In this document: in pieces, positions 6,242 through 58,065 of the stretch
Layout of the letters: the number at the start of each line of letters is the position of its first letter
How positions within the stretch are numbered: position 1 is the stretch's first letter
Assembly (NCBI GenBank): GCA_024451685.1
Contig: JAMXCW010000013.1
Location: 254 to 58,318, forward strand
Reading direction: 5' to 3'
DNA length: 58,065 nt
Source: Candidatus Bathyanammoxibius amoris
GTDB taxonomy: Bacteria > Planctomycetota > Brocadiia > Brocadiales > Bathyanammoxibiaceae
Notes under the pieces: model-generated
Seen by the model: only the letters and a program-made list of their open reading frames with translations
Databases searched by the model: none
What the model was told of the DNA's origin: nothing
Position numbers and translations under genes: made by a program

Positions 6242-6892
6242 CTACCAGCTTACCATACCGGAGAAACCCATAAAGGCCAGGGCCATCAGCGATGCGCTTA
6301 CAAATGCGATAGGAACACCCTGGAAGGACTTCGGCAGGTCAAGGAGCATGAGCCTCTCACGGATCCCCGACATCAGCAGAAGCGCCAGCGTAAACCCGAT
6401 GCCAGCGGCAAATCCCTGGACTGAAACCTCCAGTATAGACAGGCGCATAGGGGCATTGGTTGTACCCAGAAGCGCCACACCAAGTATCGCACAGTTGGTG
6501 GTGATGAGCGGAAGGTATATCCCCAGGCTGTCGTAGAGGGCCGGGGTCATCTTCCTCATTACCGTCTCAACCAGCTGTACCAACGTTGCTATAACTAAAA
6601 TATAACTTATTGTCTTCAGTACGTCAACCATACCCGCCTCGGCTACGCCGGGGAATATCGAGCCGAAGATATTTGACGGGCCGGGAAGCAGTATGTAATT
6701 ATAAATAACCCAGGTCGCCGCGGAGGCCAGGGTCATTACGAAGGTAACGGCCATGCCCATGCCCATGGCGGCGCTCGTTGTCTTGGAGACGCCGAAGAAC
6801 GGGCAGAGCCCGAGGAATCTCGCGAGCACGTAATTGTTGACGAATATCGCGCTTATAATGATAGTGAAGAGATTACTGAATTCGCCTTCCAT
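6242..6892 (-). CDS. rnfA: Rnf electron-transport complex subunit A
   Basis: A 216-aa integral membrane protein of the RnfA/NqrE family with about six helices. Family marks include NNYVLARFLGLCPFFGVS near the N-terminus and TTNCAILGVALL in the middle. RnfA pairs with RnfE in the membrane to form part of the electron and ion path. Its ATG directly follows the rnfE stop codon, so the two are translationally coupled. Confidence 0.93.
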   Translation of the reverse strand: MEGEFSNLFTIIISAIFVNNYVLARFLGLCPFFGVSKTTSAAMGMGMAVTFVMTLASAATWVIYNYILLPGPSNIFGSIFPGVAEAGMVDVLKTISYILVIATLVQLVETVMRKMTPALYDSLGIYLPLITTNCAILGVALLGTTNAPMRLSILEVSVQGFAAGIGFTLALLLMSGIRERLMLLDLPKSFQGVPIAFVSASLMALAFMGFSGMVSW

Positions 6893-7507
6893 TTATATCT
6901 TCTCCCCCCTCTGGAGTTTTCGCCAGTTAAAGTAGGCCAGAAGGAGCCCGAGCACGAGAAAGGCCCCCGGGGCCATAATCATTACCGAGGCGGGCTGGTA
7001 GCTCTCCGATATCCTTATACCGAGGATAGTGCCCATGCCTACCGCCTCTCGAATGACCGAGAGCGTGACAAGCGCTACGGTGAAACCTATACCCATCCCC
7101 GCGCCGTCTATGGCGGAACGGAACACGCCATGCTTGCTGGCAAAGTCCTCCGCCCGGTACATAATCGCACAGTTAACCACTATCAGGGGTATAAATATCC
7201 CCAGAGACTCGTTTATCTCAGGCGGCAGATAGGCCTTCATGAGCAGCTCCACCATGGTTACAAAGGCCGCTATAACCACGATAAAGCAGGGGATACGCAC
7301 CTCCTTGGGGATATGGTTCCGTATTGAAGATATCAATATGTTCGACAACATCATCACCAGTATCACAGCCGTTCCCATGGCCAGACCGTTGGACACGGTC
7401 GTGGTCACGGCCAGGGCCGGACACATACCGAGGAGTGCCACAAAAAGCGGATTATGCGCCCATAAGCCCTTTGTAAATTCGTATTTTATCGTGTGCTCTT
7501 TATTCAT
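6893..7507 (-). CDS. rnfE: Rnf electron-transport complex subunit E
   Basis: A 204-aa membrane protein of the RnfE/NqrD family. It shows ALLGMCPALAVTTTVSNGLAMG and VVNCAIMYRAEDFAS, and about six hydrophobic helices. A longer frame reaches back to 7585, but I chose ATG at 7507: it begins MNKEHTIKYEFTKGLW, typical of the family, and it overlaps the larC stop as ATGA. The upstream extension is only larC read in another frame. Confidence 0.92.
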   Translation of the reverse strand: MNKEHTIKYEFTKGLWAHNPLFVALLGMCPALAVTTTVSNGLAMGTAVILVMMLSNILISSIRNHIPKEVRIPCFIVVIAAFVTMVELLMKAYLPPEINESLGIFIPLIVVNCAIMYRAEDFASKHGVFRSAIDGAGMGIGFTVALVTLSVIREAVGMGTILGIRISESYQPASVMIMAPGAFLVLGLLLAYFNWRKLQRGEKI

Positions 7508-8691
7508 AAGTCTCTGGTCGCCTCCATCGCAGCCTCGTAGACCGACTTCAAGGGTACTGCCTTTAACTCCGCAATACGCCTGCAATCCTCATACTCAGGT
7601 GAGACGTTTCTTCTCTCGCCGTTCAGCCTCCCGACCTTTACCTTAACGGGACCGTAGCACGTCTCGACCTCGATAAGGTTGCGGTCCAACACCTTCCTGG
7701 ATGCCTTATAACTCCTTATGCCAAACGTCGTAGTCTCCCGGAAAAAGACCTTCTCCACGCCATCCCTCGCCCCTTCAGGGACGATTGCCGTAAACAGTAC
7801 ACCCGGCCTGCTTTTCTTCATCTGGATGGGTGTGGTGTATACGTCCACCGCGCCCGCCTGGAGCAGTTTGTCCGTCACGTAACCGCATATCTCACCCGTC
7901 ATGTCGTCAACGTTTGTCTCAATGACCCATACCTCGTCTCCACGGGCAACGTGAGACCTCTCGCCAAGGAGCACCCGTAAGAGATTAGGTGACCCGGAGA
8001 CCTCTCTTGAGCCGGCCCCGTAGCCGATCGCCTCCAGCGTCATATCGGGACAATAGTCCACACACCTCCCCAGAGTAGTCAATATCGCAGCGCCTGTGGG
8101 CGTGGTCAGTTCATGGTCCCTCTCCGCGGGACCTGAAAACACCTTTTGCCCCCTCAGGAGTTCAACGGTAACAGGCGCCGGCAGCGGCAGCCTGCCGTGT
8201 TCACACTCCACAAACCCTGAACCGGTGGGCAGCGGCGAGTAGAGGACCTCCTCCACACCAAGCCTGTCAAGGGCCGTTACTGCGCCCACCACGTCTAAAA
8301 CGGTGTCAAGCGCCCCTATCTCGTGGAAGTGTATGTCTTCAAGCGTAGTGTTGTGCACCTTCGCCTCGGCTTCTCCCAGCCGTGTTAAAATTTTAATACT
8401 GCTCTCCAGCAGATGCTCCGGAAGCTCCATCTGCCTGACAGGTTTGCAAAGCTCATCGAAACGCAGATGCCTCCTCTCCTTTTCGCCACCCTGTTCAGGC
8501 AGGACGTCAAACTTGGTGCCGGCTATACCGGCCCTAGATATCTTTTCAAATGATATCTTGTGCGGAAGTTTTAGGGAGAGTTTCCTAAATTCCTGGGCAA
8601 GTACGGCGCCCTCGAGACCGGCATCCACCAGCGAACCCAATATCATGTCGCCGCTTGCCCCAGAAAAGCAGTCAAAATACGCTACCCTCAC
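7504..8691 (-). CDS. larC: Nickel-pincer cofactor biosynthesis protein LarC
   Basis: LarC inserts nickel into pyridinium-3,5-bisthiocarboxylate mononucleotide to make the nickel-pincer nucleotide of lactate racemase and related enzymes. The 395-aa protein has the family start MRVAYFDCFSGASGDMILG, HFHEIGALDTVLDVVGA, and PTPTGAAIL-like TTPTGAAILTTLG. LarB, LarE and LarA are not here. It is the first gene of the run ending in rnfEAB-rsmE, overlapping rnfE by four bases. Whether an NPN-dependent enzyme exists elsewhere cannot be seen. Confidence 0.9.
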   Translation of the reverse strand: MRVAYFDCFSGASGDMILGSLVDAGLEGAVLAQEFRKLSLKLPHKISFEKISRAGIAGTKFDVLPEQGGEKERRHLRFDELCKPVRQMELPEHLLESSIKILTRLGEAEAKVHNTTLEDIHFHEIGALDTVLDVVGAVTALDRLGVEEVLYSPLPTGSGFVECEHGRLPLPAPVTVELLRGQKVFSGPAERDHELTTPTGAAILTTLGRCVDYCPDMTLEAIGYGAGSREVSGSPNLLRVLLGERSHVARGDEVWVIETNVDDMTGEICGYVTDKLLQAGAVDVYTTPIQMKKSRPGVLFTAIVPEGARDGVEKVFFRETTTFGIRSYKASRKVLDRNLIEVETCYGPVKVKVGRLNGERRNVSPEYEDCRRIAELKAVPLKSVYEAAMEATRDL

Positions 8692-8742
8692 TCTTCATCC
8701 ATCCTTCTGGGGAAGGTTTCGTTCGAAGCACAAAGTCCAGAA

Positions 8743-8771
8743 AAATTAGCATAAAAACCCCTTAAAGTCAA
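8743..8771 (-). promoter_or_regulatory. Possible larC-rnfEAB-rsmE promoter
   Basis: On the minus strand TTGACT (8771-8766) is 17 bp from TAATTT (8748-8743), about 50 bp upstream of the larC ATG. The -10 match is weak. Confidence 0.3.
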
Positions 8772-8804
8772 GGAAGCCTTTCCCGCAGAGTATACATACG
8801 TTTA

Positions 8805-8833
8805 TTGACTGCTACCCGGCCGTATTGTATCCT
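8805..8833 (+). promoter_or_regulatory. Possible hutU promoter
   Basis: TTGACT (8805-8810) and TATCCT (8828-8833) are 17 bp apart, roughly 50 bp before the hutU ATG and divergent from the larC promoter candidate. Confidence 0.35.
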
Positions 8834-8883
8834 GAGTGCTGTGAAACCCCCCGCGACAGGAGGCAAATCAACTGACCCGACCG

Positions 8884-10557
8884 ATGCATTATGAATTGGC
8901 CCCGAAAAGACCCGTAAGGGCCTACACGGGCGCTAAACTCCATGCAAAGAACTGGGACTCCGAGGCCGCGCTCAGGATGATGATGAACTGCCTCGACCCG
9001 GACGTCGCAATACTCCCAAAAGAGCTCATCGCCTACGGGGGCGCGGGCAGGGTCGCGAGAAACTGGAAGGAATTTCACAGGATAACAAGGGCCCTGGAAA
9101 CGCTCGATAACGACCAGACACTCTGCGTACAATCAGGCAGGCCCGTCTACGTGGCAAAGACCTATCCCCACGCCCCCAGGGTAGTTATCGCCACCGCCAA
9201 CCTTGTGCCCGCATGGGCTACGGAAGAAAATTTTGACAGATACGACCGGATGGGCTTGACAATGTACGGACAGATGACCGCCGGGAGCTGGATATACATC
9301 GGCACACAGGGCATCCTCCAGGGCACCTACAACACCTTCGCCGCCCTGGCACAAAAGGAATTCAATACCGCCTCTCTTAAGGGCAGGTTCGTCCTCACCG
9401 CCGGTATGGGCGGGATGAGCGGTGCCCAGCCGCCCTCCGTCACCATGAACGAGGGCGTAATACTGGACGTAGAGGTAAGGGAGGCACGCGTGCAGAGGCG
9501 CGTCGACCAGGGATACTGCGACAGGATTACCCGCAGCCTCGATGAGGCGCTAGGCTGGGTCATGGAGGCAAAATCCGGCGGGAAACCACTATCGGTTGGA
9601 CTGGTCGGCAATGCCGCAGAGATACACCCCGAACTGGTAAGGCGGGGCGTTATCCCCGACGTAGTCACGGACCAGACCCCGGCCCACGATATCTACAGCT
9701 ACGTCCCAATCGGTGACGTGGCAGAGATGGACGGGCTCAGGGAAACGGATAAGGTTGAGTACAAGAAACGTGCGCTTGAGGCCATTGCCCTCCACGCCGG
9801 GGCAATATTGGATATGCAAAAGGCCGGGGCCATATGCTTCGACTACGGGAACAACCTGAGGGCGCGGGCTGAATCGGCAGGGGTCGGCATAAGAAATGCG
9901 GACGGCAGATTTAAATACCCCGGTTTCGTACCCGCCTACATACGGCCGCTGTTTTGTGAGGGCAAGGGACCGTTCAGGTGGGTCGCGTTATCGGGCGACC
10001 CGGAAGACATCAGCCGGCTCGATGACGCCGTACTCAAACAATTCCCCGGCGACACCGCGCTGACCCGGTGGATTACCCTCGCGCGGGAAAAAGTCCCGCA
10101 TGAAGGCCTCCCCGCGCGTATATGCTGGCTCGGCTACGGCGAGAGGGCGGCCTTCGGGCGCGTAATCAACGATATGGTAGGGAAGGGGGAGCTGAAGGCC
10201 CCTGTGGTGATTGGCCGCGACCATCTGGACTGCGGCTCGGTGGCATCGCCCTACAGGGAGACGGAAGACATGCGGGACGGCAGCGACGCCATCGCCGACT
10301 GGCCCCTCCTGAATTTCGCCCTGAACGCTATCTGCGGCGCAAGCTGGGTCAGTTTCCACCACGGCGGCGGTGTGGGCATAGGCAACTCACTCCACGCCGG
10401 TATGGTCATCGTGGCGGACGGCACTAAAGAGCGCGACGAGAGGCTTGAGAGGGTGCTCACCGCCGACCCCGGCATCGGCATAGCCCGCCACGCCGACGCC
10501 GGCTACGAAATCGCCGTCAATACGGCCAGAGAAAAGGATGTCAAGACACCGGAGTAA
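8884..10557 (+). CDS. hutU: Urocanate hydratase (urocanase)
   Basis: Urocanase converts urocanate to 4-imidazolone-5-propionate, the second step of histidine degradation, with a tightly bound NAD+. At 557 aa it is full length. Visible motifs are [25 protein letters not shown] (Gly-rich), [11 protein letters not shown], and [24 protein letters not shown] near the C-terminus (quoted in part: [18 protein letters not shown]). The other hut genes (hutH, hutI, hutG) are not nearby, so the gene is an orphan here. Codon use is like that of the neighbours. Confidence 0.94.
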
Positions 10558-10757
10558 TGATTATCAGATAAAATGATACTATCAGCAGGATGCGTCTGGT
10601 CGCGCCTTTCCAGCCGTAGCGGGCCGCAAGAAATTTTTCTCTGGAATATGGTGTTTATATGCGTAACGTGCTATGCTTTTGCGACTGCTAAGCGGCTTGG
10701 TTAGCGCAAAGACTTGGTTGTTAACACTTTTCGACCAAGTAAGGGGGGGGGTAAAAA

Positions 10758-11174
10758 ATGACCGGAGACAAATCAGAAGGAATAAGAGTGCTCAAACACA
10801 AGATCTCAGGGCTGAAGCACAGCATGAATGGGGAAAAGCGCGCCCTGGGCAACTTAACGAGGAGCGTAGAGGGCCTGATCAAAGACGGCCTCAAGACGAA
10901 GGAGGCCCGAAGAGAACATTTTGAGCTTGTTCAGTCAAGGGACGACGTGCTGGATCAAATAAAGAACGACATGAAGAAGCTGGCCGACCTCAACGACGAA
11001 CTTGCCAGGGAGGAGAGAACTCCTCTGGAATGGTTGTGGTATATCCTGACCTCTCCGTTCCGGAGGCTGTGGAATCTACTCAAACGGCTTACCGGTCCCC
11101 TGACTTCGGCCGCCGGGGGAGAAGGGGTAGAATATCTTGCCCTGGAACTGGCTGAAGAGGCGGTGATACTGTAA
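10758..11174 (+). CDS. Small coiled-coil protein of unknown function
   Basis: I do not recognise this 138-aa protein. A run of nine or ten G residues ending 7 bases before the ATG could serve as ribosome site. Residues 1-90 are strongly charged and predicted helical (coiled coil: ISGLKHSMNGEKRALGNLTR, then repeated basic/acidic heptads). Residues 92-110 are Trp-rich and amphipathic (PLEWLWYILTSPFRRLWNLL), suggesting membrane-surface attachment. It ends in an acidic tail. It stands alone between hutU and a convergent glycosyltransferase. Confidence 0.6.
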   Translation: MTGDKSEGIRVLKHKISGLKHSMNGEKRALGNLTRSVEGLIKDGLKTKEARREHFELVQSRDDVLDQIKNDMKKLADLNDELAREERTPLEWLWYILTSPFRRLWNLLKRLTGPLTSAAGGEGVEYLALELAEEAVIL

Positions 11175-11178
11175 TTTA

Positions 11179-11193
11179 AGACGCGTCGCGTCT
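11179..11193. terminator. Short palindrome between convergent genes, possible terminator
   Basis: AGACGCG-T-CGCGTCT is a perfect 7-bp palindrome sited between the stop codons of two convergent genes. No T-run follows on either side, so an intrinsic terminator role is only suggested by position. Confidence 0.3.
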
Positions 11194-11201
11194 CACGGAG
11201 G

Positions 11202-12803
11202 CTACTGTTTGGAGACCAGGACGTATCTCTTTTTCACACCCTTGAACTCACTTCCCTGCAGGGAGGGATGGCGGCTCTTCAAGGCCTGGTAGTAGTCCGC
11301 GGCAACGATGCAATAGCCCGCCTCGGTGGAATCAAGAAATCTTATGAGTTCGTCTTCTGAAGAAATTTTCTTCGGGTACATGCTGCCGTAGAAGTAGAGG
11401 GTGTAACGTACGGGTAGACCATCGTACATAGCCAGTTGAGCGCCTTCCTTCATCATACCGCGTATTTCCTCATGCAGATGCCGGGTAGAGATTTTTCCCC
11501 CCGCCCTGGGCGCGAAGTACAGTGCCCGTGTGAAGCCGCAGACACTGAGCAATATAAGGCTCGCGGTGAAAAATGGGTAAAGAGATTTGCTGCGCCTGCT
11601 TAAGAGTAAAACCGCCGCACCGAACGAGACAAAGGCAACGGCGGCGATTATGATTAAATTGGTGCCAATGTCATGATTCCCGGCTATGCTGCCGGCAACA
11701 ACCCCGGCGGCGACGGCCAGCAGGTACAAAACGCCGTAAGAGACGTAATGCTGTCTCGCGGTAACGTCGTCAAGGTATTTATCTATGTAGGCCGCTACTA
11801 AAATAGAAAGCGCCGGGTAAAGGGGCAGAAGGTACGGGCTTCTTCTCTGGAAGGTCAGACTGAAACTCACATACATAACAGCCATCCATATCAGGAGAAA
11901 CGTCGTCTCTTTCTGTCCTCTCCCGTGTGAATAGTAATTGTAGAGGATCAATGGCAGGAAGAGGGACCATGGCGCAGCCCCCATAAAGACGTCACCCAGA
12001 TACTCTAAAGGGACGTCCCATTCGGTCTCCTTTTCCACCGTGTACAGGGCGATGTTTTCGCTATGGAACCAGCCAAAATATCCGGCACCCCCTTCCATAT
12101 AGGTAGGTATGGCCCAGGCAAGCACGATTAGCAGGAACGTGCCGACACACAGGAAGAAGTCTTTGCTCAATAAGAACAGAAAGTCGCGACAGTACACAAG
12201 GTAGAGAAAGGCAACCGCACTGGGGAAATAGAGTGAGAGCGGCCCCTTTGTTAACACCATCAGGGCAATCGCGACACCGGCCAGCAGCAAGTACTGCCGC
12301 AGTTTGTACGTATACCCGTAGTAAAACGACGCCAGGAACGAAGTGAAGAAAAAGGTATACATGGCGTCCATTCGCACGGCTCTGGCATAGGAGAAAATCT
12401 TTGGAGAGCACGCCAGCATAAGTGCGGCCAGCAGACCGGCCCTCGAGCCAAATAGCTTGCTGCCCAGGAAATAGGTGACCAGCACTATTCCCATCGAACT
12501 AAGCGCGGCAGGCAGGCGCGCGGACGTCTCCGTTATTGTCCCCGTAGCCGCGCTCAATAAAGCCACGGACCAGAAATAGAGGGGCGGTTTGCCGTGATAC
12601 TCCTCTTGAGCAAAATACGGTACTATCCAGTGGCCGTCCCTTAGCATCTCTTTCGCTATCTCTGCATAACGCAGCTCCGAACTGCTGCCGCTTAGATCAG
12701 GCGTGCCCAGACGGGGAAAGTACAGGAGGGAGCAGAAGACGATTAGTACTATAATATGTCCGCGGGTGCCCTGGAGATAGTTCATTAGAGGATAGATTAA
12801 CAA
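11202..12803 (-). CDS. ArnT/PMT-type membrane glycosyltransferase
   Basis: A 533-aa polytopic protein of the dolichyl-phosphate-mannose-type (PMT_2/GT83) family. These enzymes move a sugar from a polyprenyl-phosphate carrier to lipid A, a protein or another glycan at the outer face of the cytoplasmic membrane. The first periplasmic loop holds the family's acidic catalytic region (SSSELRYAEIAKEMLRDGHW) and YHGKPPLYFW, and SARLPAALSS follows. About eleven to twelve helices are visible, then a soluble C-terminal domain of about 130 residues. The start is uncertain: TTG at 12803 or ATG at 12785. The acceptor cannot be told from the sequence. Confidence 0.8.
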   Translation of the reverse strand: MLIYPLMNYLQGTRGHIIVLIVFCSLLYFPRLGTPDLSGSSSELRYAEIAKEMLRDGHWIVPYFAQEEYHGKPPLYFWSVALLSAATGTITETSARLPAALSSMGIVLVTYFLGSKLFGSRAGLLAALMLACSPKIFSYARAVRMDAMYTFFFTSFLASFYYGYTYKLRQYLLLAGVAIALMVLTKGPLSLYFPSAVAFLYLVYCRDFLFLLSKDFFLCVGTFLLIVLAWAIPTYMEGGAGYFGWFHSENIALYTVEKETEWDVPLEYLGDVFMGAAPWSLFLPLILYNYYSHGRGQKETTFLLIWMAVMYVSFSLTFQRRSPYLLPLYPALSILVAAYIDKYLDDVTARQHYVSYGVLYLLAVAAGVVAGSIAGNHDIGTNLIIIAAVAFVSFGAAVLLLSRRSKSLYPFFTASLILLSVCGFTRALYFAPRAGGKISTRHLHEEIRGMMKEGAQLAMYDGLPVRYTLYFYGSMYPKKISSEDELIRFLDSTEAGYCIVAADYYQALKSRHPSLQGSEFKGVKKRYVLVSKQ

Positions 12804-12862
12804 CTAAGTGTCATGTGCAATTGAATACAATATTACCGGAGGCAGAATGATAAAGATACTAT

Positions 12863-13267
12863 GTGCCTATGTCAAATGATTTGTTTTTGCTTGATTACCG
12901 GGAAAGACTTCTGATAGAATTTTCATGTATGGACGCCGGTTTAATAACCATAGAGGAATTTGGGCGGATAGACCTGCGGGTGGCCGAGATAACCTCCGCT
13001 GAAGACCACCCTGACGCCGACAAACTCCTTGTACTGAAAATAGACGCCGGTGACGGTATAGAGGGCAGACAACTGGTCGCGGGCCTGAAGGACCATTACG
13101 GCACTTCAGAACTGATAGGAAAGAAGATAATTATCGTGAATAACCTGGCACCGGCGATACTCAGGGGCGTGGAGAGCCAGGGCATGTTGCTTGCGGCCCA
13201 GGACGGCCGGAGTGTGGTTATCCTGGAACCGGAAAAGGATGTAAGCCCGGGCTCCAGGATCAGGTAA
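12863..13267 (+). CDS. tRNA-binding-domain protein (CsaA/MetRS C-terminal type)
   Basis: The body of this 134-aa protein is one OB-fold tRNA-binding domain as in CsaA or the MetRS C-terminal extension. It has FGRIDLRVAEITSAEDHPDA, then DKLLVLKIDAG, KKIIIVNNLAPAILRG and ESQGMLLAA. It probably binds the tRNA elbow. The start is uncertain. The first 22 residues are unlike the family, and an internal ATG at 12929 (MDAGLITIEEF) would give a normal 112-aa protein. Neither start has a good ribosome site. A strong GGAGG at 12839-12843 instead serves an ATG at 12847 that opens a 10-codon frame. Confidence 0.8.
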   Translation: MPMSNDLFLLDYRERLLIEFSCMDAGLITIEEFGRIDLRVAEITSAEDHPDADKLLVLKIDAGDGIEGRQLVAGLKDHYGTSELIGKKIIIVNNLAPAILRGVESQGMLLAAQDGRSVVILEPEKDVSPGSRIR

Positions 13268-13304
13268 TCCACTTACACAAAAGAAACTGGCAGGCGGTTG
13301 ACTT

Positions 13305-14432
13305 ATGAATGATAGCAAATGGAACGCAGAAAAGCTTAAATTCCTGGACGGACTCATCGGCAGGGGAAAGGGTGTAAGAGGTATGTTCGGGTCTGCCGAG
13401 GGTTTCCATGAAGAAGCCTTTGAGGAGTGGAAGACCAGTTCACTGGACTTTATGTTGGAGGAACTGGGGGAAGACAACCGGTTTTACAAGGATTTTGATA
13501 CTCGTGTGAACAAGGCGTCATTATCGAGTTGCAGCGTAGGGATAGGGGTGCTGACCGCGCTTAGAAAGTCGTTGGTGGAACCGCCTCCCGGGGAAGAAGC
13601 GAGGCCGTCCCCGGCAGAAAAACCGCCACAGAAAGAACCCGCAGCTAAGAAGACAAAACCAGGTATAGCGGAGGCGAAGGAGACACCACAGCCACCCAAA
13701 CGACCGCGCCTGAAGCTGGAAGAGGAACCTGCGGAAGAAACGCCTGCTACCGGGACAAAACCAGCGCAGGAGAAGCCCGCAGCTAAGAAGCCAAAGCCGG
13801 ATATAGCGGAGGCGAAGGAGACACCGCAGCCACCCGAACGACCGCGCCTGAAGCTGGAAGAGGTGCCTGAGGAAGAAACGCCCGCCGCCGGGACAAAACC
13901 GGCACAGGAAAAGCCGCTCGCAGAGAAATCTCCCACGGTGAATGCCGAGGAAAAGAAAAAGAAAAAGAAGAAGAAAGAGGAGAGACCTCGACCGACGGAA
14001 CAGTCTCGTCCGGAGGCGGAAGAGACGGCTAAAAAGGAGCCTGTCAAGGAAGAAGCGTGTGAGACGAAGTTGCCAACCGGTCTGGATATACAGGAGAATA
14101 TACTGTGGCAGGCCCAGGTCCAGCTTTCGCAGGGGCGTAAGGACGCCGCCGCAGTCCTCTGCGGTGCCGTACTTGAGGTGGCGTTGAGGTCTTTGTGCAC
14201 AAAAGACAATATCCCCGTCAAGGAGTGGGACACCATTGGAGACCTTAATGATAAACTCCTTGATAAGGGCGTTTATGACGAGGCCAAGCACAGTGAGTTT
14301 GTATCATGGTGGCACCTGCGCGAAGATGCTGCAGCAGTGAATTTTGACGTTTACAGCAAGGGTGACGTCGCGGCTATGATAAAGGGCGTGCATGACTTCC
14401 TGAAGGTTTTTTTCCCCGCGCCCAGGAATTAA
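13305..14432 (+). CDS. Hypothetical protein: repeat linker plus HEPN/DUF4145-like C-terminal domain
   Basis: 375 aa in three parts. Residues 1-100 are globular and not recognised. Residues about 100-250 are low-complexity, rich in Lys, Pro, Glu and Ala, with a 46-residue unit repeated (each has EAKETPQPP.RPRLKLEE). Residues about 265-375 form a helical domain (AAVLCGAVLEVALRSLCTKD, then LREDAAAVNFDVY) resembling DUF4145/HEPN proteins, but the usual RNxxxH signature is not intact. Function unknown. It lies 38 bp after the tRNA-binding gene and its stop is one base from the manA start, so the three may be co-transcribed. Confidence 0.7.
   Translation: MNDSKWNAEKLKFLDGLIGRGKGVRGMFGSAEGFHEEAFEEWKTSSLDFMLEELGEDNRFYKDFDTRVNKASLSSCSVGIGVLTALRKSLVEPPPGEEARPSPAEKPPQKEPAAKKTKPGIAEAKETPQPPKRPRLKLEEEPAEETPATGTKPAQEKPAAKKPKPDIAEAKETPQPPERPRLKLEEVPEEETPAAGTKPAQEKPLAEKSPTVNAEEKKKKKKKKEERPRPTEQSRPEAEETAKKEPVKEEACETKLPTGLDIQENILWQAQVQLSQGRKDAAAVLCGAVLEVALRSLCTKDNIPVKEWDTIGDLNDKLLDKGVYDEAKHSEFVSWWHLREDAAAVNFDVYSKGDVAAMIKGVHDFLKVFFPAPRN
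13641..13917 (+). repeat. 138-bp in-frame repeat inside the HEPN-like gene
   Basis: A unit starting at 13641 (gcagctaagaag) recurs at 13779 with a 138-bp period (46 codons). A decayed third start is seen near 13917. The copies differ at scattered bases, so this is older than the 66-bp repeat at the left edge. Confidence 0.8.
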
Positions 14433-51105: not shown

Positions 51106-51205
51106 GACATCCTTGTCCTCCAAACGAACCGGCTTTCGAAAAATTTTTCTAGAATGGTATTACGCATGAAAAGCGTCCAGCGGTATGAAGAGGCCACTTA
51201 AAAAA

Positions 51206-51661
51206 ATGAGTAGCACAATGGACAAGGTCAAAGAGCTCATCTCACTGATGAACGCCCATGACCTTACCGAGATAGAGATTCAAGAGGATGCGCTGAGGGT
51301 AAAGGTGAAAAAGGCCGATGGCGGCTTCCAGCACATGGTCGTACCTTCAGCGGGCAGTCTTCCGGCTCCGGCAGAGGCGGTGCAGAAGGCCCTTCCCCAA
51401 AAGGGTAATTTTGTAGAAATAAGTTCTCCGCTGGTTGGAACGTTTTACAGGGCGGCCACACCCGGAACGGAAGCCCATGTAGAGGTCGGCGATATGGTGG
51501 AAGCCGATACCGTTGTCTGTGTAATAGAGGCCATGAAGATAATAAACGAGATTAAGGCGGAAGCAATAGGAAAGGTGGTAGAGGTGTTGGTTGACGACGG
51601 TGCACCTGTTGAGTTTGGACAGCCACTTTTCCGAGTACTCCCGACTGCGTCCGTGGGGTAA
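51206..51661 (+). CDS. accB: Acetyl-CoA carboxylase biotin carboxyl carrier protein
   Basis: 151 aa from ATG 51206 (AGAGG upstream); 51185 and 51218 are other candidates. The N-terminal MDKVKELISLMNAHDLTEIE and the biotin site VIEAMKIINEIKAE are standard. It carries CO2 for fatty-acid synthesis. It is 12 bp before accC. Confidence 0.93.
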   Translation: MSSTMDKVKELISLMNAHDLTEIEIQEDALRVKVKKADGGFQHMVVPSAGSLPAPAEAVQKALPQKGNFVEISSPLVGTFYRAATPGTEAHVEVGDMVEADTVVCVIEAMKIINEIKAEAIGKVVEVLVDDGAPVEFGQPLFRVLPTASVG

Positions 51662-51673
51662 AGGAAGGTTAGA

Positions 51674-53023
51674 ATGTTTTCCCGAGTGTTAATCGCAAAC
51701 AGAGGAGAGATAGCACTCCGGGTAATCAGGGCATGCAAAGAACTGGGTATAGAGACGGTAGCCGTCTGCTCAAAGGCGGATGAGGGGGCTCAATACCTGG
51801 AACTGGCCGACAGCACCGTGTGTATCGGCCCTTCACCGGCTGAACAGAGTTATCTTAACATACCCAGCATAATTAGTGCTGCGGAGATAACGGACGTAGA
51901 GGCCATCCATCCCGGTTACGGTTTTCTCGCAGAGTCAAGTCATTTCGCGGAGGTCTGCGAGTCCTCCAACATCACCTTCATTGGCCCCTCCGCAAAGACC
52001 ATGAAAATCATGGGAGACAAAGCGCAGGCCAGGCAGGTGGCCATCAAGAACAAGATCCCTGTTTTACCCGGCAGCGAGTCTACCATAACGGGCCAGCAGG
52101 AAGCGCTGGACATAGCCCATAAGGTCGGATATCCGGTGCTGATAAAGGCCGCTGCAGGCGGCGGCGGCAGGGGGATAAGGATTGTTCACAACGACGCGAG
52201 CCTCGCGAGCTCTATGTTAACCGCCCAGCGAGAGGCCGAGACGGCCTTCAAGGACCCGTCACTTTACATAGAGAAGTTCATCGAGCATTCCTGTCACGTA
52301 GAGGTTCAGATACTTGCTGACCAGCACGGCAGCGTCATCCACCTCGGTGAGAGGGACTGCAGTCTCCAGCGCCGGCACCAAAAACTCCTGGAGGAGACAC
52401 CGTCTCCGAGTATATCTCAGCAACAAAGGGCCGAACTCTACAAGGCCGCGGTCAGAATGGCAAAGGCCGTGAGTTATTCAAACGCTGGTACGGTAGAATT
52501 CCTGGTGGATAAGGATGGCGGGAAGTTCTATTTCATAGAAATGAACACCAGACTGCAGGTCGAGCACCCTGTTACCGAGATGGTCAGCGGAATAGACCTG
52601 GTGAAAGAACAGCTGAGAATCGCCTCCGGGGAGCAACTCGGATATAAACAAAAACAGATAGTGCTTAACGGCGTAGCCATTGAGTGCCGCATCTATGCGG
52701 AAGACCCGGATAACGGGTTCCGCCCGCAGCCCGGGAGGATCAGTGTATACAGCGTTCCGGGCGGAAACGGAGTAAGAGTAGATTCCCATGTGCACCAGGG
52801 GTACATGGTCCCTCCTTATTATGACTCCATGCTGGGTAAACTTATAGTACATCAGGGTACACGTGAAGAGGCAATCGCCTGTCTGAGACGCTCACTCAGT
52901 GAATACCACGTTGAGGGCGTAAAAACCACCATACCTCTGCACCTGAGAATATTAAACCACCCCAAGTACATTAACGCCGACGTATCCACAACGTTTGTAG
53001 AGAGCTTGATGGACGAGGAATAG
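51674..53023 (+). CDS. accC: Biotin carboxylase subunit of acetyl-CoA carboxylase
   Basis: 449 aa, normal length. ATP-grasp marks: ANRGEIALRVIRACKELGI, HPGYGFLAESSHF, KAAAGGGGRGIRIV, GERDCSLQRRHQKLLEETPS and EMNTRLQVEHPVTEM. AGGAAGG precedes the ATG. It carboxylates biotin on AccB. Confidence 0.96.
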   Translation: MFSRVLIANRGEIALRVIRACKELGIETVAVCSKADEGAQYLELADSTVCIGPSPAEQSYLNIPSIISAAEITDVEAIHPGYGFLAESSHFAEVCESSNITFIGPSAKTMKIMGDKAQARQVAIKNKIPVLPGSESTITGQQEALDIAHKVGYPVLIKAAAGGGGRGIRIVHNDASLASSMLTAQREAETAFKDPSLYIEKFIEHSCHVEVQILADQHGSVIHLGERDCSLQRRHQKLLEETPSPSISQQQRAELYKAAVRMAKAVSYSNAGTVEFLVDKDGGKFYFIEMNTRLQVEHPVTEMVSGIDLVKEQLRIASGEQLGYKQKQIVLNGVAIECRIYAEDPDNGFRPQPGRISVYSVPGGNGVRVDSHVHQGYMVPPYYDSMLGKLIVHQGTREEAIACLRRSLSEYHVEGVKTTIPLHLRILNHPKYINADVSTTFVESLMDEE

Positions 53024-53056: not shown

Positions 53057-53084
53057 TTGACTATTTTCCGGGCTTTGCTAATAT
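53057..53084 (+). promoter_or_regulatory. Promoter of the cytochrome cluster
   Basis: TTGACT (53057-53062) and TAATAT (53079-53084) are 16 bp apart, about 85 bp before the first cytochrome gene. Confidence 0.45.
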
Positions 53085-53170
53085 CTCTGCCCTTCCTTCT
53101 TTAAGATTTTCCAGTTAAAGAAGACTGATGTATGGGCCCTGCCCAATTGAATTTGAAAGGAGAGGTATAC

Positions 53171-53983
53171 ATGTTCGGGCGATTTACAACATTCCTTTTG
53201 GCCGCCCTGGTGGGTATGTTCCTGATACTTGCGCCCGCGTCTACGGTTGAGGCCGCCAAGCAAAAGTATAAGTACACCGGTAACAAGGGCTGTAAGTGCC
53301 ACCTCTCTCCCGGAGTCTGGGAGGGGGACGAGTGGAAGCAGATAGGACACTCCAAGGCGTTCAAGAGCCTCAAGACAAAAGAAGAGCAGGAGGACCCAAA
53401 GTGCCTCAAGTGCCATGCCACCGGCTATGGCGGAAAATTTAAGAACCCAAAACTGAAATATCTCAAGAACGTTACCTGTGAGGCCTGTCATGGTCCGGGA
53501 GAAGGTTATGCGAATGTAAAGAACAAATTGGCTAAATCAGTGAAGAATTACTCAGAATTGAAAAAGAAGTATAAGCTCAAAGAGAAGGGTAAAAAGTCCT
53601 TTAACGAACTGCTGGAAAAGGACCCCATGATGGCCCGCAAGGTCCAGTACGACAAAGGACTTATAGTGGCCGGCATAAACAACGCATCCGGCAAGGTCAG
53701 AGACCAGTGCCTCGAGTGTCATTGGGAAGACCCCAACGACCCGGATAAATGTCCCAAGTGCGACAAGGACGAAGACGGCAAGCCCATTGCCATGGACTTC
53801 AAAAAGTACTTCAAGAAGGACGACCACAGGGACCTTGATGCCGTAGATGAAGTCAGAAAGAAGATGAGCGGCGGCGACAAGGCGAAGTGGAAGGGGTATC
53901 TCGAGAGAGACCCGATGCTCGACAAGCCGTTAAAGCCGGAGGCGAAGAAGAAAAAGAAGAAGAAGAAAAAGAAGAAGAAATAG
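53171..53983 (+). CDS. Secreted c554-like cytochrome, candidate electron-transfer module for hydrazine synthase
   Basis: 270 aa from ATG 53171, behind AAAGGAGAGG. Residues 1-29 are a signal peptide (cleavage near VEAA). Three normal haem motifs are seen: CLKCH (78-82), CEACH (103-107) and CLECH (180-184). Where c554-family proteins carry the first haem (YTGNKG, then CXXCH), this one has CKCH (41-44), one residue short. A CPKC pair at 194-197 could bind metal. The mature protein is very Lys-rich and ends in twelve Lys, suiting an acidic redox partner. Position before the heptahaem and cytochrome b genes matches the Kuenenia triheme electron-transfer module; that identity is inferred. Confidence 0.75.
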   Translation: MFGRFTTFLLAALVGMFLILAPASTVEAAKQKYKYTGNKGCKCHLSPGVWEGDEWKQIGHSKAFKSLKTKEEQEDPKCLKCHATGYGGKFKNPKLKYLKNVTCEACHGPGEGYANVKNKLAKSVKNYSELKKKYKLKEKGKKSFNELLEKDPMMARKVQYDKGLIVAGINNASGKVRDQCLECHWEDPNDPDKCPKCDKDEDGKPIAMDFKKYFKKDDHRDLDAVDEVRKKMSGGDKAKWKGYLERDPMLDKPLKPEAKKKKKKKKKKKK

Positions 53984-54059
53984 TGGCAGTAATCCTGACA
54001 ATTGTAGCCGCAACACGAGACCCAAGTATTGCGGGAGGACATAGAGGAGGGTGAATGTG

Positions 54060-55040
54060 ATGTCTGAGAGAAAGCGAGCGCATGCCTTTAGACCTATCGA
54101 ACGTCTATGGATTCCGCTCGCTTTCTTCCTTATAGTAGTAATGTCCTTCAGCGGCAGCCTTCTCAGGGCACAGGAGATTGAAGACTGTATGGAGTGTCAC
54201 GGCGACCCCGAGAAGTGCGGCAAGGCTGCAAGCATAGACAGGGAGACCGGCGAGATTAAGGTTGTAGACATGCTGGTGGACGAGGACGCGTTTATGCAGT
54301 CTGCCCACGGCCTCTCAGAGGAAGGTTTCGTGTGTATCGACTGCCACCAGGACCTCGACGGCGTCTACGGTGAACATTACCCGCTTCTGGATAGGGTAGA
54401 CTGTATAACCTTCTGTCACGACGACCCTGCCGAAGAATTCCTCGAAAGCACCCACGTGGAACATATGGAGGAGGAGGAAAAGACCCCTCCAAAGTGTACT
54501 GACTGTCACATGGGCAGGAATTCAGCCAGAGAAACCCCGGTCGCAGACGACACGTTCCACAGAGCCCATGTAAACAAGACGTGCGGCGGATGCCACGAGG
54601 ATTATCTCTATACCTACTGTATGAACTTGCACGGCCAGCTTTCCTCGCTGGGCGTCTGCAATACGGACGTGCCGAACTGTTACGACTGCCACAGCGGGCA
54701 CGACATCCTCAAGTCCGATGACCCTGACTCCAAGGTTGGCGCGAACAACAAGGTTGAGACGTGCGGAGAGTGTCACAAGGGTGCGGGTAAGAATTTCGTG
54801 AAACATATAGCGCATCCGGGCTTTAAGACGCGCAATCTCTACGCCGAGCTTTACGGGATATATAAGGAAAAGGGTTTGTTCGGCGTCTTGGCCGAGCCGC
54901 AGGCTTATCTGGCGCTGGTATTCGTGGCGTACATAGGAATAATCTGCCAGTCCTTTTCCATGTTTGGCGGCCATGCGTTTCTGATGTGGGTCAGAATGCT
55001 TTTAGATGAGAGAAAAGGTGATGGCGGCCATGACCACTGA
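54060..55040 (+). CDS. Membrane-attached heptahaem c-type cytochrome
   Basis: 326 aa from ATG 54060, with AGGAGG nine bases before it. A signal/anchor helix spans about residues 15-35. Haem motifs: CMECH (43-47), CIDCH (92-96), an unusual CITFCH (115-120, C-x3-C-H), CTDCH (146-150), CGGCH (175-179), CYDCH (207-211) and CGECH (235-239). A second helix lies near the C-terminus (about 283-305). It overlaps the next cytochrome b gene by 20 bases, so the two products probably form one quinol-oxidising complex facing the anammoxosome or periplasm-like side. The partner and direction of flow are inferred. Confidence 0.85.
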   Translation: MSERKRAHAFRPIERLWIPLAFFLIVVMSFSGSLLRAQEIEDCMECHGDPEKCGKAASIDRETGEIKVVDMLVDEDAFMQSAHGLSEEGFVCIDCHQDLDGVYGEHYPLLDRVDCITFCHDDPAEEFLESTHVEHMEEEEKTPPKCTDCHMGRNSARETPVADDTFHRAHVNKTCGGCHEDYLYTYCMNLHGQLSSLGVCNTDVPNCYDCHSGHDILKSDDPDSKVGANNKVETCGECHKGAGKNFVKHIAHPGFKTRNLYAELYGIYKEKGLFGVLAEPQAYLALVFVAYIGIICQSFSMFGGHAFLMWVRMLLDERKGDGGHDH

Positions 55041-55860
55041 GGGTAAACTATATAAGAGGTTCACCCCGTTTCACAGGGTAACCCACTTTTTGCTGATTAT
55101 AAGCTTTTTTGGCCTGGTATTAACCGGGATGCCTTTGGCCTTTCAAGACCAGGCATGGGCGCGTTGGCTGTATGAAGCCATGGGCGGCTATCCCACCGCC
55201 AGTTACATACATCGCATCTGCGCCGGGATGACGTTTCTCTGCGCCTTCATGCATTTTGCATATTGCTCGTACCTTGTATTTGTGAGGGGACACGGGGCAA
55301 GTATCGTCTGGGGCGCTGACGCCATCATGTTGCAGCCCAAGGACGTGAAGGACGTTGTTACGGACATAAAATGGCTGTTGGGTTTTGGCCCTCATCCCGC
55401 GTATGACAGATGGATATGGTGGGAAAAGTTTGAGTATTTATCTCTCCTGTGGGGTACGATAGTGATGGCCCTGACGGGCTTAATGCTCTGGTTTCCAACG
55501 ACATTCTCAATAATAATGCCGGGCTGGGCCATAGATATGGGCCTGGTAGCCCATAGATATGAGGCGATCCTGGCAGCAGGATTCGTATTTACCATACATT
55601 TTATCCATACACACCTGCTTCCGGAGAAGGTGCCTGTTGACGAAGCAATGTTTACCGGTATCATAAGCGAAGAAGAGATGTTACACGAGAGGCCGCTTCA
55701 CTATAAAAGACTTAAGGAGGCCAATCTGCTTCAACGGTACGAGACAGTGCCGAACGTGCCTCTTTCCATAATATCAAAGATAATTGCCGTGCCTTTACTA
55801 TTACTGGGGCTGATTTTGATCAGTCTGATGTTCTCCTCGCTGCTCCTGAGTCTTATCTAA
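55021..55860 (+). CDS. Di-haem cytochrome b membrane subunit
   Basis: 279 aa from ATG 55021 (AAAGGTG upstream); 55030 is the alternative. Four or five helices in the Ni/Fe-hydrogenase/formate-dehydrogenase-type cytochrome b fold. Candidate haem ligands: FTPFHRVTHFLLI (helix 1), YIHRICAGMTFLCAFMHFA (helix 2) and AHRYEAILAAGFVFTIHFIH (helix 4). A C-terminal helix follows a cytoplasmic loop. It should pass electrons from quinol to the overlapping heptahaem cytochrome. Confidence 0.85.
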   Translation: MAAMTTEGKLYKRFTPFHRVTHFLLIISFFGLVLTGMPLAFQDQAWARWLYEAMGGYPTASYIHRICAGMTFLCAFMHFAYCSYLVFVRGHGASIVWGADAIMLQPKDVKDVVTDIKWLLGFGPHPAYDRWIWWEKFEYLSLLWGTIVMALTGLMLWFPTTFSIIMPGWAIDMGLVAHRYEAILAAGFVFTIHFIHTHLLPEKVPVDEAMFTGIISEEEMLHERPLHYKRLKEANLLQRYETVPNVPLSIISKIIAVPLLLLGLILISLMFSSLLLSLI

Positions 55861-55998
55861 CGGCTATGAACGGACATGGGGCGGAAAATGCGGGGAGGCA
55901 GGGACGGCCTGTTTCGTAAACACTTGTCTTGTCTCCACTTGAGTCTGAGCGCATTGTGGCGTTTCACCGGCTCAGGCCAAAAATCTGAAAAAAAAAGA

Positions 55999-56026
55999 TT
56001 GATTTGGTATTTTCAGTGCGTATAAT
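55999..56026 (+). promoter_or_regulatory. Strong promoter before the Cys-rich/beta-propeller operon
   Basis: TTGATT (55999-56004) and a perfect TATAAT (56021-56026) are 16 bp apart, with an A-run just upstream. The start would be near 56033, about 80 bases before the next gene. It separates the electron-transfer genes from the synthase candidates. Confidence 0.6.
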
Positions 56027-56040
56027 GTTTGTTCACCTGA

Positions 56041-56059
56041 GCTGGCGAGTGTTGCCAGC
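56041..56059 (+). promoter_or_regulatory. Stem-loop at the start of the leader
   Basis: GCTGGC (56041-56046) and GCCAGC (56054-56059) pair around a 7-base loop, close to the predicted 5' end of the message. Such 5' stem-loops can slow RNA decay. Confidence 0.4.
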
Positions 56060-56110
56060 CAACTGCCTGAAGTATAGTATAGTTAAGTTAATTAGAAGGG
56101 GGGTGGAAGA

Positions 56111-56665
56111 GTGAAGAGATTTGCTGTAACAGCCCTGGGAATATTCATCGTCTTCTGTTTTGTAACTACACAAACCACTCTGGCGGAAGAGGCTGCCAAG
56201 GCGGAAGAGGCTGCCAAGACGGGCAAGCCTTGCCCGATGAACAAGATAGTCAAAAAGTTCTGGTGCGAGGCGTGCGGGGAAGTTAGCGAATATACTGACT
56301 GCTCGAACCAGGAGTATATGTGGAACAGTGCAGAGCATGACGCGAAGGAGAACAATCCTCACGCAAACCTGTCTGAGACATGGGCATGTCAGACTGCAGG
56401 TTATTACTGTATACAATGCGGTAAGTGTTTTCCAAGACCCGGTATCTGTTCCGATTGTGACGACGATACCGAGAGCAGGAAAAGTCTTGCAAAGGTACTG
56501 TTCAAATGTCCTAAAGGTCATGAGCAAGACGAGCCGGGCGCCGGCTTTAAGTTGAGAGAAGGTGCTTACGAAGAGGAGATGCAAGACGCCGGTAATTGCC
56601 CGGAGTGTGGGGAGCGTCTGGCGATGGTTTGCGCGAAATCCGGAACCTGCCCGCATACTAAGTAG
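56111..56665 (+). CDS. Exported Cys-rich protein with zinc-ribbon-like motifs
   Basis: 184 aa starting with GTG at 56111 behind GGGGGGTGG. Residues 1-25 are a signal peptide (cleavage near TLA-EE), then a short EEAAKAEEAAK duplication. Sixteen or so cysteines lie mostly in pairs: CPMN, FWCEACGE, CIQCGKCFP, GICSDCDDD, FKCPKGH, GNCPECGER and GTCPH. No CXXCH occurs, so it is not a c-type cytochrome; metal binding (zinc or iron) is likely. It shares a promoter and strand with the beta-propeller gene 42 bp downstream, suggesting a role in synthase assembly or metal supply. No known name. Confidence 0.7.
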   Translation: MKRFAVTALGIFIVFCFVTTQTTLAEEAAKAEEAAKTGKPCPMNKIVKKFWCEACGEVSEYTDCSNQEYMWNSAEHDAKENNPHANLSETWACQTAGYYCIQCGKCFPRPGICSDCDDDTESRKSLAKVLFKCPKGHEQDEPGAGFKLREGAYEEEMQDAGNCPECGERLAMVCAKSGTCPHTK

Positions 56666-56706
56666 TAGTTTTTTTTAGTTTTCGTTTATTGAGGAGGGTT
56701 CGGTAG

Positions 56707-57846
56707 ATGAGAAGAAACTCGCTGTATTGTAGTATGGTAGGTGCCGCTGTACTCTCCTTGGCACTTATCTTCATTCAAACCGCTAACGCGGGTTATATTC
56801 AAGGAACTCACGTTAAGACAGAACTACCCTCACCATTCAGCATTGCTATTTCATCTGACGGAAGTAATCTCGCAGTTTCAAACCAGTCAGGTCATAGTGT
56901 TACCTTTATCGACGCAAAAGGGTATAAGGTAACTGGTGAGGTAGCCGTACATGACCAGCCGGAGGCCGCGGTCTTCTCGCTGGACGGCAAAACGCTTTAC
57001 GTCTGTAACGCCGAGTCCGACAGCGTCTCTGTGATTGACGTCGCTTCAAAGAAAGAGACAAAGGAGATCAAGGTTGGTGACTGGCCTTGCAACATCAGGC
57101 TCAGCAAGGATGGTTCCAAGGCTTATGTCTGCTGCTCCGGCAACATGTGGGATAAGATTGACATCATCGACATCACCCGCCAGGAAAAGGTAGGCTCGAT
57201 TGAATTATCTAATTATGGTCCGAGGGACATTGCCATATCACCTGACGGCTGCACGGGTGCTGTAATCTGTGACACCGCCGGTTCTATCAACAGGACGGTT
57301 GACTTCATAGACCTGTCTACGAACACGATCATTGAATCAAGGTCAATCCGCCACAGCGCAAACCTCAGGGGCATAGTTTATTCTCCTGACGGTCAGTACG
57401 TCGCTGTCACCTACATGAAGCCGAAGAACTGGCTGCCCGTCTGCGAGGCCGAGAACGGTGAGGTGTTTACCAACAACCTGGCCGTCCTTGAGACCAGGCC
57501 GGGCGGTAAGCTGGCTCAACTCCCGCTGGACGAGCTGAACAATTACGACGGGAATCCTTATGGTCTTGTTATCGGCCCGCAGGGTAAGTATCTCTACATC
57601 GCCGTACGCGGCATGCACAGGGTTACTATCCTGGACTTTGGTAAGATTAGAGAGATCATGGTCAGCAACACCCAGCAGCAGCTTGACGGCTACACCAGTG
57701 ACCTGGATTTTGTCAATCACTACCTGGTGCAGAGGGTCCCTGTAGGTCTTGGACCCACTCAGCTGGCACTTTCCCCCGATGGAAAGTACTGCTACGTTTG
57801 CAATTACTTCTCAAACAACGTGTCAGTTATAAGGACTCCGTTATAA
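56707..57846 (+). CDS. hzsB: Secreted beta-propeller, candidate hydrazine synthase beta subunit
   Basis: 379 aa; GAGGAGG nine bases before the ATG. Signal peptide 1-28 (cleavage near ANA-GYI). The rest is six to seven YVTN-type blades with recurring SPDG..-YV turns: ISSDGSNLAVSN, FSLDGKTLYVCN, LSKDGSKAYVCC, ISPDGCTGAVIC, YSPDGQYVAVTY, IGPQGKYLYIAV and LSPDGKYCYVCN. No haem motif is present, as in the haem-free beta-propeller subunit of hydrazine synthase, which condenses NO and ammonium to hydrazine. Size, export, the upstream triheme/heptahaem/cytochrome b genes and a following exported protein support that reading. Blade families are widespread, so the name rests on context. Confidence 0.65.
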   Translation: MRRNSLYCSMVGAAVLSLALIFIQTANAGYIQGTHVKTELPSPFSIAISSDGSNLAVSNQSGHSVTFIDAKGYKVTGEVAVHDQPEAAVFSLDGKTLYVCNAESDSVSVIDVASKKETKEIKVGDWPCNIRLSKDGSKAYVCCSGNMWDKIDIIDITRQEKVGSIELSNYGPRDIAISPDGCTGAVICDTAGSINRTVDFIDLSTNTIIESRSIRHSANLRGIVYSPDGQYVAVTYMKPKNWLPVCEAENGEVFTNNLAVLETRPGGKLAQLPLDELNNYDGNPYGLVIGPQGKYLYIAVRGMHRVTILDFGKIREIMVSNTQQQLDGYTSDLDFVNHYLVQRVPVGLGPTQLALSPDGKYCYVCNYFSNNVSVIRTPL

Positions 57847-57869
57847 GGATTACAAGGGATTGAATCCTT
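57845..57869 (+). promoter_or_regulatory. Intercistronic hairpin
   Basis: AAGGATT (57845-57851) and AATCCTT (57863-57869) form a 7-bp stem that includes the last stop-codon base, without a following T-run. It may protect or process the message between two subunits. Confidence 0.4.
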
Positions 57870-57916
57870 GAAGCTGAATCGATATTGGCTTTATAGGAAA
57901 AGGAGGGAGATTCAGG

Positions 57917-58065
57917 ATGCATAAAACGTTCGTATTTCTTGCGATGGCCGCCTTTGTGGTCTTTGGCATAGCAACCGCTGACGTATCCACAGCGGGTGAA
58001 GCCAAGGTTGTGGCCACCATACAGACGGGGCCGGAGTGGACACCCCCCGAGAGAGGTGAGCCGTT
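57917..58065 (+). CDS. N-terminus of an exported protein, candidate hydrazine synthase gamma subunit
   Basis: Only 49 codons are visible. AGGAGG (57901-57906) precedes the ATG by ten bases. The start MHKTFVFLAMAAFVVFGIAT is a signal peptide, with cleavage near STA-GEA, followed by KVVATIQTGPEWTPPERGEP. In Kuenenia the haem-bearing gamma subunit follows beta. No haem motif is within the visible part, so the identity is from position only. Confidence 0.5.
   Translation, partial: MHKTFVFLAMAAFVVFGIATADVSTAGEAKVVATIQTGPEWTPPERGEP

Follow-up and report, generated by a model that had tools for sequence, protein, structure and literature searches.

Does the right end of the window (the whole 58,065-nucleotide stretch analysed here, from contig C13, JAMXCW010000013.1) encode hydrazine synthase (HZS), the signature anammox enzyme, which also serves as a standard marker gene, and why does the contig stop inside the gene for the gamma subunit? 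The genome, G000, is a metagenome bin of 95% completeness, and the last base of the window coincides with the end of C13. Judged from sequence, an anammox bacterium belonging to the family Ca. Bathyanammoxibiaceae has its HZS gene cluster at this end of the window, and the locus adds one member to an already known kind. The same genome carries a second hzsC, and we hold the two statements jointly with high confidence. The six features reported for this region were all confirmed, each on the forward strand (Table 1).

Table 1. Genes at the right end of the window
Feature	Coordinates	Strand	Characteristics
kuste2854 counterpart, secreted tetrahaem-type cytochrome	53171..53983	+	Signal peptide; three CxxCH and one contracted CKCH
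kuste2855 counterpart, membrane-anchored multihaem cytochrome	54051..55040	+	Six CxxCH and one CX3CH (CITFCH)
kuste2856 counterpart, cytochrome b (formate dehydrogenase gamma/b561 type)	55030..55860	+	Start overlaps the preceding gene by 11 nt
kuste2858 counterpart, Cys-rich exported protein	56111..56665	+	184 residues; 16 Cys; no haem motif
hzsB, hydrazine synthase beta subunit	56707..57846	+	379 residues; beta-propeller; no haem motif
hzsC, gamma subunit, first ~49 codons	57917..58065	+	Exported start; gene truncated by the contig end

An earlier note on this DNA had predicted an HZS locus with its electron-supply genes, and the prediction holds. The exported, haem-free propeller that it described is HzsB, which scores at equivalog level against NCBIfam NF052340 (hydrazine_beta; 686 bits, cut-off 560) and matches PDB entry 5c2v_B with E = 2e-157 over 350 residues; the alignment proposed for this gene gave 62–87% identity to anammox relatives versus less than 30% for the best plasmid-borne propellers, and a generic YVTN propeller was rejected on these grounds. 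The further exported protein of which only the start had been seen is HzsC (76% in a tblastn comparison with HzsC of the relative G004, with a match to NF052341), and the suggested search downstream for gamma and alpha genes found the C-terminus of gamma together with hzsA at the end of contig C12. Both hzsA and hzsB are single in the genome. HzsA reaches 1537 bits against NF052339 (cut-off 800) and 1192 bits against 5c2v_A, contains two CxxCH motifs and aligns its CSGCHDGSY with CSGCHYGSY of Kuenenia, retaining the catalytic residues, a zinc-binding CxxCH His and the proximal Tyr (His587/Tyr591, numbering of PMC12607021). Contig C12 also encodes a hydrazine dehydrogenase (HDH; NF052343, 1187 bits, cut-off 900) and, near hzsA, an octahaem protein of the HOX type (815 bits against 6t5e; 4n4j was also matched). 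HZS and HDH are both encoded in this genome, as anammox metabolism demands. The equivalog scores refute the idea that the propeller and cytochromes form a generic electron-transfer cluster unconnected with hydrazine synthesis. Proteins of both kinds, YVTN propellers and multihaem cytochromes, are indeed widespread (398 plasmid-collection records gave weak matches), but one genome here combines equivalog-level alpha, beta and HDH with a clear gamma match, and PDB matches were found to all three HZS chains.

The four genes upstream of hzsB were compared with their counterparts at equivalent positions in L190, from the K. stuttgartiensis-like complete genome G017, in which the full locus order is present. 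The first product (47% identity; Pfam Cytochrome_C554, E = 6e-10) is a putative electron carrier to HZS; the odd site noted earlier beside its three haem motifs is the contracted CKCH of the Kuste2854 type, a candidate haem site that is kept in all homologues checked. The second (41%) was rightly described as a heptahaem cytochrome provided that the CX3CH motif is included in the count, and its gene overlaps by 11 nt with that of the cytochrome b (56%). Matches of the latter to TIGR01583 (E = 5e-9) and to PF01292 (E = 9e-6) fall below the curated cut-off, and the annotation of kuste2856 itself reads formate dehydrogenase cytochrome b556-like (PMC6423088). The Cys-rich exported protein, also correctly recognized, has no Pfam or NCBIfam match and is 38% identical to its counterpart; in the main HZS loci that were compared, a gene of this type lies directly 5' of hzsB. 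The order of the electron-supply module, in which a tetrahaem carrier with a contracted CXCH motif, a multihaem membrane cytochrome and a cytochrome b precede HZS, was found here, and its motifs and synteny recur across anammox families.

The arrangement follows that of Kuenenia stuttgartiensis kuste2854–2861 (PDB 5C2V/5C2W), in which the multihaem carrier, multihaem cytochrome, cytochrome b, Cys-rich protein, beta, gamma and alpha are encoded in the same order. Beta is closely similar across the full mature chain, and the catalytic residues are kept in alpha of G000 and, for gamma, in full-length copies from relatives. The earlier comparison with this region stands for gene order, with the refinement that the window lacks the sigma-54 regulator kuste2857, which Kuenenia, Brocadia and Scalindua have between the cytochrome b and Cys-rich genes (PMC12053348): the corresponding 250 nt of the window contain no such open reading frame, and the regulator is likewise absent in Anammoxibacter L109 and in G004 (RIFCSPLOWO2_12_FULL_50_35) and G007 (NC_groundwater_1467 52_288), two relatives with the same GTDB family as the window that have both been designated Bathyanammoxibiaceae (PMC9723696). 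A further difference from Kuenenia is that the HOX-type gene, trpBA-like ORFs and HDH come after hzsA on C12. Beta and gamma are separate genes in the window, as had been observed, and as in the published HZS of the family, in which alpha, beta and gamma are all present (Zhao et al. 2022, PMC9723696; GBE 2025, PMC12758564); the supposed contrast with Scalindua is not absolute, since beta and gamma are also separate in several Scalindua MAGs (L086, L090 and L095).

In G004 beta, gamma and alpha lie together on one contig behind the same upstream genes in the same order, and from this synteny we infer that hzsC of C13 continues into hzsA on C12. The gamma sequences of G000 consist of two N-terminal pieces, which include the first CxxCH, and two C-terminal pieces, as against one hzsA and one hzsB; the middle is not assembled, so that neither gamma gene is complete from end to end and the pairing of C13 with C12, and of C1 with C21, comes from synteny with relatives. 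The two CxxCH motifs, the Cys of the third haem (165) and Asp168 are all present in the full-length genes of G001 and G004, and the equivalents of Cys165 and Asp168 are invariant in an alignment of gamma from relatives (numbering of PMC12607021 and PMC12758564).

The second hzsC of G000 spans contigs C1 and C21. The last 77 nt of the window are identical to an internal stretch of C1, and exact overlaps of this length occur at both forks in G000 (120–121 nt in G006 and 141 nt in G007); such overlaps of assembler-word length are the signature of an assembly fork. C13 therefore ends within hzsC because the stand-alone copy is partly identical to it. Over the assembled portions the two genes are closely similar in the mature part and have distinct leaders. 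An intact stand-alone hzsC occurs on G001:C357, where the upstream flank resembles C1 (tRNA-Cys/tRNA-Leu) and the downstream flank C21 (M16 peptidase). A second full operon was considered and rejected: hzsB is absent from the 19 kb upstream on C1, and hzsA from the 15 kb downstream on C21. The tRNA flank is common to genera g1 and g2 only (G006 has these tRNAs on another contig), the M16 gene adjoins hzsC in g1 only and a single hzsC was seen in G004. Previous reports that the subunits lie on different contigs ascribed this to incompleteness or left it open (PMC9723696, PMC12758564), and it was remarked on in PMC10467342 as well; here the break is traced to the second hzsC. It is very improbable that C13 instead ends through incomplete coverage, with the extra pieces coming from a different strain within the bin. 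Every Bathyanammoxibiaceae genome is a metagenome bin, in G002 one flank is present in two divergent versions and the hzsC contigs of G001 differ in depth (35 versus 16), making strain mixing possible there; against this, the breaks share exact assembler-word overlaps, the flanks are separate loci altogether, one of which sits on a 287-kb contig of this bin, and the same excess of copies is found in closed Brocadiaceae genomes.

Four near-closed Brocadiaceae genomes carry hzsB twice and hzsC three times. Their stand-alone hzsC, seen in B. pituitae AP021856, Jettenia ecosi, Loosdrechtia and others, follows conserved genes for a histidine kinase and an NtrC-type regulator and bears a sigma-54-like site of sequence TGGCAC-N5-TTGC; like the copy in G000, it lacks beta and alpha and closely resembles the operon copy in its own genome. 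In the family of the window, in contrast, the stand-alone gene lies beside tRNA-Cys/tRNA-Leu in two genera, has no adjacent two-component pair and shows no sigma-54 site in any of four copies. G000 has one operon and a stand-alone hzsC, whereas Kuenenia MBR1 has two operons and a third hzsBC pair (PMC5854607). The latter is the nearest description found in the open-licence literature, which yielded none of a stand-alone hzsC; this is weak evidence, but the arrangement, recurrent in many anammox bacteria, looks little described.

At fourfold sites, the mature gamma genes of one genome differ by 0–12%, against 16–54% between syntenic stand-alone copies of different genomes, a pattern of concerted evolution.

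By homology, the cytochrome b and multihaem pair would draw electrons from menaquinol, as proposed together with delivery to HZS for the Kuenenia module (PMC12053348, PMC8388095), and the tetrahaem carrier would hand them to gamma. Haem gamma-I would then reduce NO to hydroxylamine, which would pass through a tunnel to haem alpha-I for condensation with ammonium to hydrazine, and the HDH encoded on C12 would convert hydrazine to N2. The second hzsC may be an additional source of gamma under its own promoter, held near the operon copy by gene conversion. Such an extra, separately controlled supply is the role that we favour, at about an even chance.

A free NO-handling enzyme, converting NO to hydroxylamine or scavenging it and switched on by the two-component system in Brocadiaceae, is unlikely to be the product instead of a spare part for HZS. 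Gamma does hold one haem that reduces NO and another, with bis-His ligation, through which electrons enter (PMC12607021, PMC12758564), and the gene has long persisted apart from beta and alpha, in Brocadiaceae with its own kinase, regulator and sigma-54-like site; however, the mature protein is nearly identical to HZS gamma, with no specialization visible in the sequence, the published tunnel mechanism requires alpha for hydrazine and the two-component pair does not adjoin the gene in Bathyanammoxibiaceae. Rather doubtful, too, is a neutral origin, in which the copies would be functionless remnants of partial operon duplications homogenized by recombination owing to their near-identity. Partial copies are common, such as hzsBC without hzsA in Kuenenia MBR1 and in Scalindua L087 and L094, and one two-component-linked hzsBC, in L165, has decayed. 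Yet the full-length stand-alone copies observed are all intact reading frames with haem motifs, the kinase, regulator and promoter-like site are kept with them across most Brocadiaceae genera and their copy-specific leader residues are conserved.

The detached hzsC probably explains the separated HZS subunits of published Bathyanammoxibiaceae genomes, and it warns that the number of hzsC copies does not equal the number of operons. The finding of a separately placed gamma gene raises the question of why an extra gamma, near-identical to the operon copy, is retained, in Brocadiaceae beside a two-component regulator. A tentative answer, to which we give clearly less than an even chance, is that anammox bacteria retain an independently regulated stand-alone hzsC as a free NO-reducing cytochrome or as replacement gamma; HZS subunits would then not be solely the products of one operon, and the copy may be ancient, with gene conversion continuously rewriting its mature part to match the one in the operon.

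The genome (G000) spans 2.07 Mb and is 95% complete; the contig (C13), of which the window covers bases 254-58318, terminates exactly where the window does. An earlier note placed a probable hydrazine synthase (HZS) locus at 53057-58065, and the multihaem cytochromes, overlapping cytochrome b, Cys-rich protein, propeller and exported start that it described were all confirmed. Its assignment is borne out by the propeller, which scores 686 bits against NF052340 (cut-off 560) and aligns with PDB 5c2v_B over 350 residues (2e-157), and by the truncated gamma frame. The gamma and alpha genes expected downstream were likewise found: gamma begins in the window, while its C-terminus precedes the sole hzsA of G000 (1537 bits, cut-off 800) at the end of contig C12, and in G004 the whole series (accBC, carrier, multihaem, cytochrome b, Cys-rich, hzsB, hzsC, hzsA) is complete on a single contig. 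G004 (RIFCSPLOWO2_12_FULL_50_35) and G007 (NC_groundwater_1467 52_288) have been placed in Ca. Bathyanammoxibiaceae (PMC9723696) and share one GTDB family with the window. The CSGCH...Y arrangement of PMC12607021 (His587, Tyr591) is retained in G000 HzsA. Beyond hzsA, the octahaem protein matches 6t5e (815 bits) and 4n4j, hydrazine dehydrogenase (HDH) scores 1187 bits (cut-off 900) and the trpB/trpA reading was made by eye.

Features of the HZS locus and of the C12 cluster
Feature	Location	Strand	Details
Biotin carboxyl carrier protein and biotin carboxylase genes	window 51185-53023		directly upstream of HZS locus; likewise in G004
Secreted multihaem cytochrome (carrier)	from 53171	+	3 CxxCH, 1 CKCH
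Membrane-anchored cytochrome	after carrier	+	6 CxxCH, 1 CITFCH
Cytochrome b	overlaps membrane-anchored cytochrome by 11 nt	+	
Cys-rich exported protein	after cytochrome b	+	184 aa
Haem-free beta-propeller, HzsB	after Cys-rich gene	+	379 aa; NF052340, PDB 5c2v_B
Exported protein start, truncated hzsC (gamma)	contig end	+	~49 first codons
Compact anammox catabolic cluster (L055)	G000:C12:47000-61709, 2793-14036 (~11 kb)		hzsA, pentapeptide-repeat protein, HOX-type octahaem protein, two trpB/trpA-like ORFs, HDH

The order in a Kuenenia stuttgartiensis-like complete genome (G017) is carrier, multihaem, cytochrome b, sigma-54 regulator, Cys-rich, beta, gamma, alpha, matching the published kuste2854-2861 region (PMC12053348, PMC6423088). 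Identities to G017 are 47% (carrier), 41% (multihaem), 56% (cytochrome b), 38% (Cys-rich) and 64% (beta and alpha). The regulator is present in G017 and at Brocadia and Scalindua HZS loci, whereas in the window cytochrome b and the Cys-rich gene are only 250 nt apart and the regulator is lacking, as it is at the HZS loci of G004, G007 and Anammoxibacter. The carrier's CKCH, the earlier note's odd site, is kept in 8/8 further homologues checked; we take it to be the contracted haem motif reported for such cytochromes.

G000 contains two gamma N-termini, one on C13 behind hzsB and one on C1 with no hzsB within 19 kb, and two C-termini, one on C12 ahead of hzsA and one on C21 with no hzsA beside it. 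The final 77 nt of C13 match an internal stretch of C1 exactly, as do the initial 77 nt of C21 an internal stretch of C12; like overlaps occur at breaks in G006 (120-121 nt) and G007 (141 nt). Such exact shared overlaps at contig ends mark forks in the assembly graph. The second hzsC stands alone, since in the relative G001 contig C357 joins a C1-like flank (tRNA-Cys/tRNA-Leu upstream) and a C21-like flank (M16 peptidase downstream) around one intact hzsC of 341 aa; the G000 joins C13-C12 and C1-C21 rest on synteny, the middle of gamma being absent from both copies. The tRNA flank is common to genus g2 (G003), G006 carries its second copy at a different location and G004 shows one hzsC only. 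HZS genes lie on different contigs in Bathyanammoxibiaceae (PMC12758564), a separation remarked on in PMC10467342 and, for Bin_158, where two contigs are involved, attributed to incompleteness (PMC9723696). For the genomes examined here, a set outside which Bin_158 falls, a second hzsC is sufficient to explain it.

Stand-alone copies extend beyond the family. Among Brocadiaceae genomes that are closed or nearly so, G029 (B. pituitae), G033, G035 and G021 each have two hzsB, three hzsC and two hzsA loci; one hzsA of the single-contig G035 (C1:1876477-1878892) is split over two overlapping frames, by frameshift or sequencing error. The third hzsC is preceded by an orthologous dCache/HAMP histidine kinase and NtrC-type sigma-54 activator, an arrangement also found in Jettenia ecosi, Loosdrechtia, others and one Scalinduaceae MAG (L097). 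In other Scalinduaceae (L087, L094) this pair sits ahead of an hzsBC that has no hzsA, and a related pair precedes operon hzsB in some Brocadiaceae (L172, L188). A TGGCAC-N5-TTGC site (at least 9/10 positions) lies within 400 nt upstream of 11 of the 13 pair-linked copies, which are related and thus not independent; shuffled upstream regions reach this score in at most 0.7%. The site is absent from four of four Bathyanammoxibiaceae stand-alone copies checked, and G017 and H5_AMX3 have no stand-alone hzsC. Elsewhere, a decayed hzsB-hzsC behind the same kinase-regulator pair is a pseudogene of the two-component-linked copy (L165, G051:C7:83000-98000, 4948-6927), and Scalindua sediminis has two tandem hzsB copies, the first broken near its end, then hzsC without hzsA (L094, 6841-9238). 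Scalindua RBC_AMX3 (G020) has intact hzsBC behind the pair (L087) but a broken canonical operon, with hzsB and hzsC in several frames and hzsA partly open (L189, G020:C26:38000-56000, 7104-11846; decay or sequencing errors); no other hzsA was found in that genome.

Within genomes, mature stand-alone and operon gamma proteins are 97-100% identical. Their genes show differences at 0-12% of fourfold sites, against 16-54% for syntenic stand-alone copies between six Brocadiaceae genomes. Where the two G000 copies can be compared, identity is 93.8% across 112 nt of the N-terminal part and 100% across the final 74 nt. Leaders track locus (MFTKT/MYYKT in most stand-alone, MR.G in most operon copies). 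In the gamma tree stand-alone copies form no clade, and several group with the operon copy from the same genome; stand-alone and operon copies remain separate within the closely related Jettenia-like group (Jettenia ecosi, G035, G025). These patterns point to concerted evolution of the gamma copies.

Gene content, order, copy number and the conservation of catalytic residues (in the case of gamma, among relatives) were read directly from the genomes, most of those compared being metagenome bins. By analogy with the Kuenenia enzyme, menaquinol electrons would pass through cytochrome b and the multihaem protein to the carrier and on to gamma, where NO would be reduced to hydroxylamine at gamma-I; hydroxylamine and ammonium would then yield hydrazine at alpha-I, and HDH would convert this to N2. 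That the stand-alone hzsC is a neutral leftover appears unlikely, and that it makes a free NO-handling protein slightly less probable still. Judged from sequence, there is about an even chance that it provides an extra supply of gamma.
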